This document shows positions 25,394 to 56,970 of a stretch of DNA of 64,000 bases, one piece after another. Location: assembly GCA_020854035.1 (NCBI GenBank), contig JADZGE010000012.1, positions 62,001 to 126,000 of the forward strand, written 5' to 3'. The DNA comes from Burkholderiales bacterium. Lineage in GTDB: Bacteria > Pseudomonadota > Gammaproteobacteria > Burkholderiales > SG8-41. The notes below the pieces were generated by a model. The model was given only the letters and a program-made list of their open reading frames with translations. It had not been told where the DNA came from and did no database searches. The first letter of the stretch is position 1, and each line of letters begins with the position of its first letter. The translations under genes and the position numbers were made by a program.

Positions 25394-28393
25394 TCACCCG
25401 AGCGCGCGCTCGAGCACCCGCGCGACGTGCACCGCCTCGCGGTGCGCGCCATCGGCGATCTGGTGGCGGCAGCTTGTTCCGGCCGCGACGACAAGCGTGT
25501 CGGACGCCGCGGCGCGCACCGCCGGCAGGAGCGAGAGTTCGCCCATTTTCAGCGACACCTCGTAATGCTCGGCCTCGTAGCCGAAGCTCCCCGCCATCCC
25601 GCAGCAGCTCGACTCCACCGTCTCCACCGCGAGCTCCGGCACGAGCTTCAAGGTCCGCTCGACGGCGGACATCGTCGCGAACGCCTTCTGGTGGCAATGA
25701 CCGTGCAGCAGCGCCCGGCGCTGCGGCAGCGGCTTCAACTCGAGGTTGAGTCGCCCCGCGTCGGCTTCCCGCGCGAGGAACTCCTCGAACGTGTACGAGT
25801 TCGCCGCGAGCCGGTCGGCGGCGGGGCCCGGCAGCATCGAGCGCAGTTCGTCGCGCAACCCGAATACGCACGAGGGCTCGAGCCCCACGACCGGCAATCC
25901 GCGATCGAGCGCGGGCGCGAGCGCGTCGAGGAGACACCGGGCTTCCGCGCGCGCTTCGTCCACGAGCCCCGCCGCGAGAAAAGTCCGCCCGCAGCAGAGC
26001 GGGCGCCCGCGGTCGGCCGGGCGCGCCGGGTGACAATGGAACCCGGCGGCCTCGAGGACGTGCATCGCCGCCGCGAGGTTGTCCGGTTCGAAGTAGTTGT
26101 TGAACGTGTCGGCGAGCAGCACCACTTCCCCCGCGACGCCGGAGCCCTTGAACCCGGCCGACTCGCCTTCGCGCGTCGCCCGCAGCCCGCCCAGGAACGT
26201 GTCGCCGCGCCACGGCGGGAGCCTGCGCCGCGGCGCGAATCCGACGTGCCCCCTGAATGCGTCTTGCAGCGGGTTAACGAGCCACGCGAGCCGCGCCGCA
26301 AGCGGCGCGTAGCGCGGCAGCCAGGCAATCAACCTTTCCCTGACCGGAAGTGCATGGCGCTTCCGGTAATGGTGGAGGAACTCCACCTTCATCTTCGCCA
26401 TGTCGACGCCGGTGGGGCATTCGCGGCGGCAGCCCTTGCACGAGACGCAGAGCTCCAGCGCGCCGCGCACCTCCTCCGAGCCGAGCGGATCCGCGCCGAG
26501 CTGCCCCGAGAGCGCGAGGCGCAGCGTGTTCGCCCGGCCGCGCGTGAGATGGCGCTCCTCGCGGGTCGCGCGATACGACGGGCACATCGTGCCGGCGTCG
26601 AACTTGCGGCAGTGTCCGTTGTTGTTGCACATCTCGACGGCCCTGGCGAAACCGTCTCCGGGGCGCGTCGTGCCGTCCTCGTGCTCGCTCCAGTCGAGCG
26701 CCGTCGCGACGGGAATCGTGCGGTAGCCGGGCGCGAAGCGGAAGAGCGACCGGTCGTCCTGCTTCGCCGGCCGCACGATCTTGCCCGGGTTCATGAGGCC
26801 CTTCGGGTCGAAGATTGCCTTCACCTCGCCGAACGCGCGCGCGAGCTTGGGGCCGTAGAAGGGCTCGATCCATTCGGAGCGCACGAGCCCGTCGCCGTGT
26901 TCGCCCGAGTACGACCCCTTGTACTGCCGGACGAGATCGGCCGCCTCCTCCGCGATCGCGCGCATCTTTGCCGCCCCGTCGCGGCGCATGTCGAGGATCG
27001 GGCGGACGTGAAGGCAGCCGACCGACGCGTGCGCGTACCACGTGCCCTGCGTGCCATGCTTCTCGAAGACCCGCGTGAGCCGCCCGGTGTACTCGGCGAG
27101 GTGCTCGAGCGGCACCGCGCAGTCCTCGATGAAGGAAACCGGCTTGCCCTCGCCCTTCATCGACATCATGATGTTCAAGCCCGCCTTGCGCACTTCCCAG
27201 AAATCGCGCTGCAACGCCGGATCCACCACCTCGACGACGCTCCCGGGGAGCCCCCGGTCGGCCATGAGCTCGGTCAGGCGCGCGAGGCTCGCGATCTGCG
27301 CGTCGCGTTCCTCCCCGGCGAATTCAACCAGCAGGATCGCCTCCGGCTCTCCCTTCACGCACGCGTCCACCGTTGCGCGGAACGCCGGGTTGGCGCGCGC
27401 GAGCCCGATCATCGTCCGGTCAACGAGTTCCACCGCGCTCGGCGAGAGCCCGACGATATGCCGCGGCGCCTCCATCGCGCGATAGAAGCTCGGGAAGTGG
27501 CACACGCCCAGCGTGCGGTGCCGCGGCAGGGGCGACAGATCGAGGTGCAGTCGCCGTGTCCAGGCGAGCGTCCCCTCCGAGCCGACGAGGAGGTGCGCCA
27601 TGTTGAACGCCGGGTCGCCCCCATCCCCGCCCCGGCCCTCCCCTTGGAGGGGAGGGTGAGCTCCGCGCGGCGGTGATTGATTGAAGGGAGCGCCGAGCAG
27701 CATGTCGAGGTTGTAGCCCGCGACGCGCCGCAGGAGCTTCGGCACCCGGTGCTCGATCTCCTCGGCTTCACGCACGGCGATCGCGCGGATGCGTCGCACG
27801 AGCTCGACGTATCCGGCCGGGGCGGCGAGGCGGGCGGGGTCGCCCGTCACCTCGCCGAAGGTGTATTCGGCGCCGTCCGGCAGTACCGCGTCGATCGCCG
27901 CGACGTTGTGCACCATGTTGCCGTAGCGTATGGAGCGCGAGCCGCACGAGTTGTTGCCGGCCATGCCGCCGAGCGTCGCCTGCGCGCTGGTGGAGACATC
28001 CACCGGGTACCACAGGCCGTACGGCCTGAGGTACGCGTTAAGCTGGTCAAGCACCACGCCCGGCTGCACGGTCACCCTGCGCGCTTCGCGGTCGAAAGCG
28101 ACGATGCCGTTCAGATGACGGGAGTGATCGATGACGAGCGCCGCGCCGACGCTCTGGCCGCATTGCGAAGTGCCGCCGCCGCGCGCGAGTACCGGCACGC
28201 CGGCGTCCACGGCGACGCGGAACGCGGCGAGCGCGTCCGCTTCCGTCGCGGGCACGACGACGCCGATCGGCTCGATCTGGTAGATGGAGGCGTCCGTGGA
28301 GTAGCGGCCGCGCGAAGCGGGGTCGAAGAGCACGTCGCCGCGCATTTCGCGCTTCAGCCGGGCCGCGAGGGCGGAATCGCCGGGGGAGAGCAT
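25394..28393 (-). CDS. FAD-binding and (Fe-S)-binding domain protein (glycolate oxidase/D-lactate dehydrogenase GlcD-GlcF-like fusion)
   Basis: MLSPGDSALAARLKREMRGDVLFDPASRGRYSTDASIYQIEPIGVVVPATEADALAAF...; CVSCKGCRRECPTGVDMAKMK and CCGMAGSFGYEAEHYEVS. Start trimmed from 28516. Confidence 0.93.
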   Translation of the reverse strand: MLSPGDSALAARLKREMRGDVLFDPASRGRYSTDASIYQIEPIGVVVPATEADALAAFRVAVDAGVPVLARGGGTSQCGQSVGAALVIDHSRHLNGIVAFDREARRVTVQPGVVLDQLNAYLRPYGLWYPVDVSTSAQATLGGMAGNNSCGSRSIRYGNMVHNVAAIDAVLPDGAEYTFGEVTGDPARLAAPAGYVELVRRIRAIAVREAEEIEHRVPKLLRRVAGYNLDMLLGAPFNQSPPRGAHPPLQGEGRGGDGGDPAFNMAHLLVGSEGTLAWTRRLHLDLSPLPRHRTLGVCHFPSFYRAMEAPRHIVGLSPSAVELVDRTMIGLARANPAFRATVDACVKGEPEAILLVEFAGEERDAQIASLARLTELMADRGLPGSVVEVVDPALQRDFWEVRKAGLNIMMSMKGEGKPVSFIEDCAVPLEHLAEYTGRLTRVFEKHGTQGTWYAHASVGCLHVRPILDMRRDGAAKMRAIAEEAADLVRQYKGSYSGEHGDGLVRSEWIEPFYGPKLARAFGEVKAIFDPKGLMNPGKIVRPAKQDDRSLFRFAPGYRTIPVATALDWSEHEDGTTRPGDGFARAVEMCNNNGHCRKFDAGTMCPSYRATREERHLTRGRANTLRLALSGQLGADPLGSEEVRGALELCVSCKGCRRECPTGVDMAKMKVEFLHHYRKRHALPVRERLIAWLPRYAPLAARLAWLVNPLQDAFRGHVGFAPRRRLPPWRGDTFLGGLRATREGESAGFKGSGVAGEVVLLADTFNNYFEPDNLAAAMHVLEAAGFHCHPARPADRGRPLCCGRTFLAAGLVDEARAEARCLLDALAPALDRGLPVVGLEPSCVFGLRDELRSMLPGPAADRLAANSYTFEEFLAREADAGRLNLELKPLPQRRALLHGHCHQKAFATMSAVERTLKLVPELAVETVESSCCGMAGSFGYEAEHYEVSLKMGELSLLPAVRAAASDTLVVAAGTSCRHQIADGAHREAVHVARVLERALG
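27612..27672. repeat. Palindromic REP-like repeat (family C) inserted in frame within a CDS
   Basis: CCCTCCCCTTGGAGGGGAGGG at 27636-27656, encoding [20 protein letters not shown] within GAPFNQ...DPAFNMAHLLVGSEGTL. Confidence 0.8.
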
Positions 28394-28404
28394 GGTCTTG
28401 AACA

Positions 28405-28516
28405 AGGTAACGAGGTGATGGTGACGATCGATGGTGACAAGGGGAAAGCGCCGGAAGCGGACGGATTCCGGTCGCTCGCACCTCGTCACCCGTACCTCGT
28501 CACCCTCATTCGTCAC
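28405..28516. repeat. GTGA.../...TCAC intergenic inverted repeat in a divergent promoter region (family A, copy 5)
   Basis: aacgaggtgatggtgacgatcgatggtgac...gcacctcgtcacccgtacctcgtcaccctcattcgtcacc. Confidence 0.75.
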
Positions 28517-28564: not shown

Positions 28565-29767
28565 ATGACGCACCAGAGCGGCCGCCATTTCCTGCAGATT
28601 CCCGGACCGACCAACGTGCCCGACCGCGTGCTGCGTGCCATCGACAACGCGACCGTGGATCACCGCGGACCGGAGTTCCAGAGAATGTCGAGGGAGGTGC
28701 TGGCGGGGCTGAAGGAAGTGTTCCGGACGAGATCCCCGGTCGTCGTGTTTCCGGCCTCCGGCACCGGCGCGTGGGAGGCGGCGCTCGTCAACACGCTCTC
28801 GCCCGGCGACAGGGTGCTCATGGTCGAGACCGGCCACTTCGCGACGCTGTGGCAGAACATGGCGCAGAAACTGGGTCTCGCGCCCGAGTTCATCAAGGGC
28901 GACTGGCGGCATGGCGCCGACCCGGCGGCAATCGAGGCGAGGCTCGCCGAGGACGCGAAGCGCGAGATCAAGGCGGTGTGCGTGGTGCACAACGAGACTT
29001 CCACCGGTGTGACCTCGAGGATCGCCGAAGTGCGCAAGGCCATCGACCGTGCCGGGCACCCGGCTCTTTTCATGGTCGACACGATCTCCTCGCTCGCTTC
29101 GATCGATTATCGCCACGACGAGTGGGGCGTCGACGTGACCGTCGCCGGCTCGCAGAAGGGCCTCATGCTGCCGCCGGGGCTCTCGTTCAACGCGGTCTCC
29201 GGCAAGGCGCTCGCGGCCGCGAAGGGCGCGAAGCTGCCGCGCTCCTACTGGAACTGGGAGGAGATGATCGCGGCGAACCGGGACGGCTGGTTTCCCTACA
29301 CGCCGGCCACCAACCTCCTCTACGGCCTGCGCGTCGCCCTCCGGATGCTGCTGGAGGAAGAGGGGCTGGAGAACGTGTTCCGGCGCCACGACCGGCACGC
29401 GGAGGCGGCGCGCCGCGCGGTGCGCGCGTGGGGGCTCGAAATCTTCTGCGCCAGCCCCGCCGAGTATTCCGGCTCGCTCACGGCGGTGCTCATGCCCGGG
29501 GGCGCCGGCGAGATCGAGTTCCGCCGCGTCGTGCTGGAGCACTTCAACCTCTCGCTCGGCTCGGGCCTGTCCAGGCTGCGCGACAAGGTGTTCCGCATCG
29601 GGCACCTCGGCGATTTCAACGACCTCATGCTCTGCGGCACGCTCTGCGGCATCGAGATGGGGCTCGCGCTGGCGGGCGTCCCCCACCGCAAGGGCGGGGT
29701 CGCGGCGGCGATGGATTACCTCGCCGGCGGCGCGGCCGCCGGCGAGAAAGCGCGCGCTGCGGCGTGA
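28565..29767 (+). CDS. Class V aminotransferase (serine--glyoxylate aminotransferase-like)
   Basis: MTHQSGRHFLQIPGPTNVPDRVLRAIDNATVDHRGPEFQRMSREVLAGLKEVF; VTVAGSQKGLMLPPGLSFNAVS. Confidence 0.93.
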   Translation: MTHQSGRHFLQIPGPTNVPDRVLRAIDNATVDHRGPEFQRMSREVLAGLKEVFRTRSPVVVFPASGTGAWEAALVNTLSPGDRVLMVETGHFATLWQNMAQKLGLAPEFIKGDWRHGADPAAIEARLAEDAKREIKAVCVVHNETSTGVTSRIAEVRKAIDRAGHPALFMVDTISSLASIDYRHDEWGVDVTVAGSQKGLMLPPGLSFNAVSGKALAAAKGAKLPRSYWNWEEMIAANRDGWFPYTPATNLLYGLRVALRMLLEEEGLENVFRRHDRHAEAARRAVRAWGLEIFCASPAEYSGSLTAVLMPGGAGEIEFRRVVLEHFNLSLGSGLSRLRDKVFRIGHLGDFNDLMLCGTLCGIEMGLALAGVPHRKGGVAAAMDYLAGGAAAGEKARAAA

Positions 29768-29812
29768 GTGGAGGTGACGATCTCGCCCCGTCACCCTCGC
29801 CTCGCCACCTCT
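29765..29812. repeat. GTGA.../...TCAC intercistronic repeat (family A, copy 6)
   Basis: gtgagtggaggtgacgatctcgccccgtcaccctcgcctcgccacctct immediately before ATG 29813. Confidence 0.55.
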
Positions 29813-30643
29813 ATGACCCTGAAAGACCGCATCGGAGTCGACATCAGCCGGCGCCTCAAGCTGGAGGACGCCATCGAGTGGGCGGCGCGGAACCGCGTTC
29901 GCCATATCGACATCCAGCTCGATACCGGCGAGAACGCGCTGCCGTCGTTCGACACGAAGCGTTGCGCGACGGTGAGAAAACTCCTCGAGCGCCACGGCGT
30001 GGCGCTCGGCCTGCACACGAACTCGGCGGTGAACGTGGCCGAATACTCGCCGCACGTCGCCGACGCGGTGACCGACTATCTCAAGCGCTACGTCGACCTC
30101 GTGCCGCGGCTCGGCGCGAGCTGGACCGAAATGCACGCCGGCTATCACTTCACGAAGGACCGCAAGGCGCGGATGGAGGCGGGCAAGGAGCGGCTGAAGC
30201 GCGTCGTCGAGCACGCGCAGAAGAAGAAGGCGCTGGTGCTCCTGGAGAACCTCAACAAGGAGCCCGAACTGGCCGAAGTGCACTACCTCGCGCACACGGT
30301 CGAGGAATGGCAGTACTACTGGGACATCCCTTCGCCCTGCTTCAAGCTCTGCTTCACGGTGAATCACGCGCACCTTGTCCCGGAGGGGGTGGAGGGATTC
30401 GTCGCGGCGCTCGACTTCGCGCGGGTGGGTGAGGTGCGGCTCGCCGACACCTGGAGAAACGGCCACGAGGTTCACCTCAGGCCCGGCGCCGGCGATCTGG
30501 ATTTCGGGGCGGCGTTCAAGGCGATGGAAGGCAAGGGCTACCGGGGCTGCTACACGAACGCGTTCACCACGCTGGACGAGATGCTCGCGGCGCGAGACTA
30601 TCTCGTCGAGCGGGCGCGCGAAGCCGGGGTGCGGGTCGACTGA
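29813..30643 (+). CDS. Sugar phosphate isomerase/epimerase-like TIM barrel protein
   Basis: MTLKDRIGVDISRRLKLEDAIEWAARNRVRHIDIQLDTGENALPSFD...LVLLENLNKEPELAEVHYLAHT. Confidence 0.8.
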   Translation: MTLKDRIGVDISRRLKLEDAIEWAARNRVRHIDIQLDTGENALPSFDTKRCATVRKLLERHGVALGLHTNSAVNVAEYSPHVADAVTDYLKRYVDLVPRLGASWTEMHAGYHFTKDRKARMEAGKERLKRVVEHAQKKKALVLLENLNKEPELAEVHYLAHTVEEWQYYWDIPSPCFKLCFTVNHAHLVPEGVEGFVAALDFARVGEVRLADTWRNGHEVHLRPGAGDLDFGAAFKAMEGKGYRGCYTNAFTTLDEMLAARDYLVERAREAGVRVD

Positions 30644-52364: not shown

Positions 52365-52480
52365 CGCTCGCCCTCCCCTTGAAGGGGAGGGTGGGGTGGG
52401 GATGGGGTACAACGATGAACCGGGCCGCGCTGAACCCCACCCCCATCCCGGCCTTCCCCCTGAAGGGGAAGGTGAGAGGC
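52365..52480. repeat. Mirrored pair of palindromic REP-like repeats (family C)
   Basis: ccctccccttgaaggggagggtggggtggggatgggg ... aaccccacccccatcccggccttccccctgaaggggaaggtgagagg. Confidence 0.85.
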
Positions 52481-56927: not shown

Positions 56928-56970
56928 CAACCCCATCCCCACCTCAACCCTCCCCTTGAAGGGGAGGGAG
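56928..56970. repeat. Palindromic REP-like repeat (family C)
   Basis: caaccccatccccacctcaaccctccccttgaaggggaggg; palindrome 56948-56968. Confidence 0.8.

Follow-up and report, generated by a model that had tools for sequence, protein, structure and literature searches.

The window, by which we mean the whole stretch of 64,000 nucleotides analysed here, carries on its minus strand the gene of a FAD-linked oxidase/4Fe-4S oxidoreductase (Table 1), in which the Pfam domains FAD_binding_4, FAD-oxidase_C and Fer4_8 are recognized. By sequence as well as by fold, the PDB entries closest to this protein are D-lactate dehydrogenases, and it appears to be D-lactate or D-2-hydroxyacid dehydrogenase-like. 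The adjoining genes at 28771-30643, as read from their translations, resemble a serine-glyoxylate type aminotransferase and a hydroxypyruvate isomerase and would provide a glyoxylate-metabolism setting for the oxidoreductase. The features discussed below, including a REP-like hairpin that lies within the codons of the oxidoreductase itself, are collected in Table 1.

Table 1. Features of the window and one example peptide from relatives (positions are those of the window)
Feature	Position	Strand	Remark
FAD-linked oxidase / 4Fe-4S oxidoreductase gene	25394..28516	-	1040 aa, intact ORF
Fe-S/CCG interdomain linker, residues 768-800	26117..26215	-	hotspot in relatives
78-bp in-frame insertion, residues 280-305 (26 residues)	27602..27679	-	absent from orthologues
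Direct repeat TTGAA, copy 1 (coding strand TTCAA)	27603..27607	+	possible target-site duplication
REP-like element: C-rich tail CCCCCATCCCCGCCCCGG and hairpin CCCTCCCCTTGGAGGGGAGGG, then TGA	27618..27659	+	genome-wide consensus match
Hairpin core CCCTCCCCTTGGAGGGGAGGG	27636..27656	+	within minus-strand ORF 25394-28516
Direct repeat TTGAA, copy 2	27681..27685	+	possible target-site duplication
Inverted pair of REP-like element (BIME-like)	52371..52472	.	hairpins 52371-52391, 52452-52472
Extragenic copy of REP-like element	56948..56968	+	upstream of 6PGDH/HIBADH-type dehydrogenase gene
Example of a predicted linker REP-encoded peptide, genus of G031/G036: PHPNPLPALRGEGA			

The first-pass annotation had read a REP-like palindrome inserted in frame inside this gene, and both the sequence and the reading are confirmed. 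The extent it had proposed, 27612-27672, needs correction, since comparison with orthologues places the in-frame insertion at 27602-27679. In the orthologue alignment the segment is missing and the homologues do run directly to AHLL, as had been stated: close relatives without the insert read GAPFNMAHLL (L030) and PAPFNMAHLL (L043), the empty site in L030 being GGCGCCCCGTTCAACATG. A comparable palindrome was found at the insertion site in none of the approximately 138 orthologues examined, which represent a sample, and a stem of at least 9 bp occurs in the FAD-domain loop of the window's gene only. What had been a hint of a target-site duplication becomes, at the DNA level, a 5-bp repeat of TTGAA, which was also considered as a MITE feature. 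That said, a 5-bp repeat with the same spacing and no more than 6 bp from a given junction is met at 1.3% of positions in the oxidoreductase gene, and a true target-site duplication is therefore suggested, but not proven. As for the structure, the AlphaFold model, calculated from a 46-sequence alignment, has a mean pLDDT of 83, with values below 50 only at residues 1-42 and 277-299, the latter stretch nearly coinciding with the insert. In line with the earlier proposal to look for it in a loop, the insert is predicted to form a disordered Pro/Gly-rich loop of the FAD domain.

The hairpin has many relatives in the same genome. Namely, 7 matches were found within the window as compared to 0.01 expected by shuffling, while a degenerate form of the hairpin gave 34 forward and 34 reverse matches in the whole 5.03-Mb genome and 0 in the reversed control, that is, approximately 34 dispersed hairpins. 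The aligned copies yield a consensus of a C-rich tail and a hairpin, roughly ACCCCATCCCCACCCNNA-CCCTCCCCTTGAAGGGGAGGG, the tail being confined to one side and a fixed tag such as GTAG or CGTC being absent. Several copies are arranged as inverted pairs (BIME-like), including one in the window, and the palindrome noted earlier at 52365-52480 and 56928-56970 is real, with its hairpins at the positions given in Table 1. The inverted pair in the window lies just upstream of the likely start of an RluE-type pseudouridine synthase; pseudouridine synthases are a gene class already known to carry REPs (PMC3733652). Five of the six reading frames are without stops, in 27 to 34 of the 34 copies, and the in-frame copies appear, by eye, to favour the reading phase PPL(Q/E)GEG. 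No Rfam family covers the element, the best match, RF01762, scoring 13.5 bits where the cut-off is 37. The hairpin has no copies in the nine other same-genus genomes searched, and over 60 genomes of the family its distribution is very patchy, with 22 copies in the window's genome on this count and 52 in G022. Separately, approximately 14 hairpins lie within 20 kb at G000:C64:24609-44286 (L147, L148, L149), three of them in a 66-bp tandem array, which is possibly a REP-rich or foreign island. A codon-bias score for telling coding from non-coding copies was also tried and abandoned as too noisy, as it failed to pick out the GlnS and DnaE2 copies described next.

Further in-frame copies, for which a scan of the genome had been proposed, are present in the same genome: of the 20 loci retrieved from it, 3 fall inside conserved genes, all of them in frame (the identities of host genes outside the window come from Pfam and alignment). 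In GlnS (L155), there are approximately 45 residues, including SPPPQGEGQGGGGG, where the relatives run HPG-(A/T)G-RDFL..DLNPDS; Pfam anticodon-binding domains lie on both sides of this insert, and so does the hexamer CCCGGC. In DnaE2 (L158), two REP-like stretches are found between CTLE and AVRLGL. In 6 of 46 sequences the GlnS loop contains REP-like peptides, and these are not all of one type. In the relative G019, an inverted pair lies in frame within a DNA methylase (L206). The DnaE2 loop of G016 (L265/L276) contains an unrelated 14-bp perfect palindrome, CTCGGAGGAAAACC..GGTTTTCCTCCGAG, again in frame. In three same-genus genomes (L254, L256, L259), short tandem repeats of the GAGTCAC kind, in frame as SRVTSHESRL, occupy the same DnaE2 loop as the REP of the window's genome.

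A more extensive picture emerges from a second region of the oxidoreductase, the Fe-S/CCG interdomain linker. The window protein has no palindrome or REP in its own linker, but the G021 orthologue (L188) carries the C-rich REP-like element of the window precisely there, in frame. Among the 138 linkers, 20 contain a perfect stem of at least 9 bp (1.18 expected), 13 a stem of at least 10 bp (0.55 expected) and 8 a stem of at least 12 bp (0.05 expected), where the expectations come from segments of equal length taken from other parts of these genes and where only perfect stems are counted, such that decayed inserts are missed. The palindromes are of different kinds, including a CCCTCCCC-type, a CCCTCTCCC-type, TGTCGAAG..CTTCGACA in two Comamonadaceae, for whose hairpin sequence a literature search found no paper, and TGGGGTCAGACCCCA in L060. 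In the hosts tested they are dispersed, with 12 and 11 copies, 3 to 32 copies, and 18 copies; the places of those with 3 to 32 copies include the linkers of G022, G036 and G014, while the 18 copies are those of TGGGGTCAGACCCCA in G103, several of them in closely spaced pairs that run in the same or in opposite directions. When the two variable regions are left out of the tree, the linker palindrome label needs at least 14 changes, gains and losses taken together, of which 11 are forced by starred branches. One hairpin, with its 13-bp stem intact, is common to L045, L286 and L304 and looks inherited. Unrelated palindrome families have inserted convergently into the Fe-S/CCG linker.

In-frame palindromes as such are already known, both as the palindromic elements of Rickettsia (RPEs) and as GTAG/CGTC REPs. 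RPE-1 to RPE-7 are, like the element here, palindromic repeats in open reading frames with the frame kept, and they lie in exposed regions of proteins that include the DNA polymerase III alpha subunit and a tRNA synthetase (PMC3767692). By the same measure, the insertions in the window gene, in GlnS and in DnaE2 are all in frame and leave the reading frame open. The RPE unit is, however, 100-150 bp long as compared to about 40 bp here (PMC3767692), the host is Rickettsia instead of a member of the Burkholderiales/betaproteobacteria, and unrelated palindrome families at one site are a feature of the present case, with a bearing on the hotspot question raised for the RPEs (see below). The Rickettsia parallel drawn in the first-pass annotation holds as far as the in-frame position and the intact frame go, but is too narrow, since intragenic REPs are known as well (PMC3733652). 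In that report (Di Nocera et al. 2013, PMC3733652), REPs tagged with GTAG/CGTC lie inside genes for DnaE2, tRNA synthetases and pseudouridine synthases and are, like the element here, small dispersed palindromes, present as singles and dimers and in frame in genes. The present element differs from them in having a C-rich tail and hairpin and neither tag, and because both tags are missing we do not file it in the GTAG/CGTC super-families; the portion of that source consulted makes no mention of unrelated families entering one and the same linker repeatedly. As regards REPs in general, the element is a short (20-40 bp) dispersed palindrome in many copies, with alternating inverted pairs (BIME-like). 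With the TnpA-REP (RAYT) or REPtron systems (PMC2817692, PMC8266576) it shares inverted pairs and the presence of Y1 genes in the genome, but differs in having no GTAG and no hairpin at the three own-genome Y1 genes examined. The intragenic enterobacterial RU/MITE elements are likewise small mobile repeats with open frames, although longer (103-168 bp), according to PMC2759123. All in all, the C-rich element works like the GTAG/CGTC REPs and the Rickettsia RPEs; what is new here is an untagged C-rich family, together with the convergence of unrelated palindromes on a single linker as their insertion site.

The best explanation, whose probability we put at roughly 0.85, is that a dispersed, non-autonomous C-rich REP-like element inserted into the FAD-domain loop of the oxidoreductase and was tolerated. 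Following this scheme, the element would land in the codons of the loop, and the oxidoreductase would stay in frame because the number of inserted nucleotides is divisible by three and five of the six frames are stop-free in most copies, with the enzyme gaining a disordered and tolerated Pro/Gly-rich loop. Judging from the overall pattern, frame-keeping insertions in loops and linkers would survive while others would be lost, and selection, by removing the harmful ones, would leave loops and linkers as hotspots. The effect of the insertion is best read as near-neutral, i.e. as neutral tolerance. Three observations weigh against this explanation. First, the nine same-genus genomes searched are without the hairpin, meaning that they offer no close empty-site strain. 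Second, the three Y1 loci of the genome that were examined do not carry it. Third, around the insert the mRNA folds in an ordinary manner (z -1.29), and mRNA structure was discarded as a reason for its retention.

Concerning the moving step, a TnpA-REP (HUH/Y1) transposase acting on the single-stranded hairpin would be the leading candidate, by analogy only. Y1 transposase genes do exist in the window's genome, with two weaker matches besides the three loci examined. Across the 60 genomes, the number of Y1 genes bears by eye no obvious relation to the number of hairpins: in G022, 52 hairpins are accompanied by no Y1 match, and in G009, 8 Y1 matches by no hairpin. With no hairpin at the three loci and counts unrelated by eye, a link of the hairpin to the Y1 transposases gained no support. 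For this step only, one can tentatively consider that the elements spread without a transposase, through slippage of replication or a switch of template at hairpins that have short direct repeats, a possible if doubtful route that is otherwise compatible with the best explanation. The 5-bp repeat at the window's insert, the CCCGGC flanking the GlnS insert, the examined Y1 genes without an adjoining hairpin and the missing GTAG tag all speak for it; however, the dispersed, unlinked copies require a copying step, and the direct repeats may be due to chance.

Could the REP-encoded segments have been kept since longer linkers and loops improve or retune the enzymes? Such an adaptive role would fit the recurrence of inserts in one linker across many species, and likewise the single REP with an intact stem that L045, L286 and L304 share. 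We consider it quite improbable, given that the inserts vary in family, length, frame and sequence, that many close relatives have no insert at all, and that disordered loops accept insertions without benefit. Much less probable still is the decay of the gene into a pseudogene. While the end branch of the window protein on the orthologue tree is fairly long (0.29), its reading frame is full-length, with no stops or frameshifts, and over the 311 columns of the orthologue alignment with at least 95% conservation it departs only at 2, both times mildly and conservatively. To the notion that the repeat was stitched into the gene during assembly, the misassembly against which the first-pass annotation had itself cautioned, we likewise give very little credence. 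The draft genome, probably a MAG, consists of 128 contigs, with a completeness of 86% and a contamination of 5.8%, but the flanks belong, in the correct order, to a single collinear gene on a 241-kb contig, the element is far shorter than a read, and equivalent inserts occur in independent genomes. Finally, that no insertion took place and codon bias let a Pro/Gly-rich loop become a palindrome by drift is barely conceivable, for although the length of this loop varies naturally (L018, L019, L032, L085, L103), tail and hairpin fit the genome-wide consensus at the DNA level, extragenic copies included, and no other orthologue loop has a stem of at least 9 bp.

Insertion in frame thus recurs across genes and related species, with unrelated repeats entering the same tolerant sites. 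For the Rickettsia RPEs, two accounts of shared sites were left standing: hotspots that receive insertions of different origin, or one old insert that has since diverged (PMC3767692). Linker palindromes of unrelated sequence, each dispersed in its own host where tested, are direct evidence for the hotspot answer in the oxidoreductase. With approximately 20 of 138 linkers, there is also a large natural data set for judging whether the peptides encoded by repeats serve as neutral filler or supply useful linker sequence. It is unlikely, in our estimate, that unrelated palindromes converge on the Fe-S/CCG linker, the GlnS C-terminal loop and the DnaE2 loop beyond what tolerance allows, via targeting or positive selection of the flexible segments that they encode. 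If this were true, dispersed palindromes would regularly supply the proteins of these bacteria with new linker sequence.
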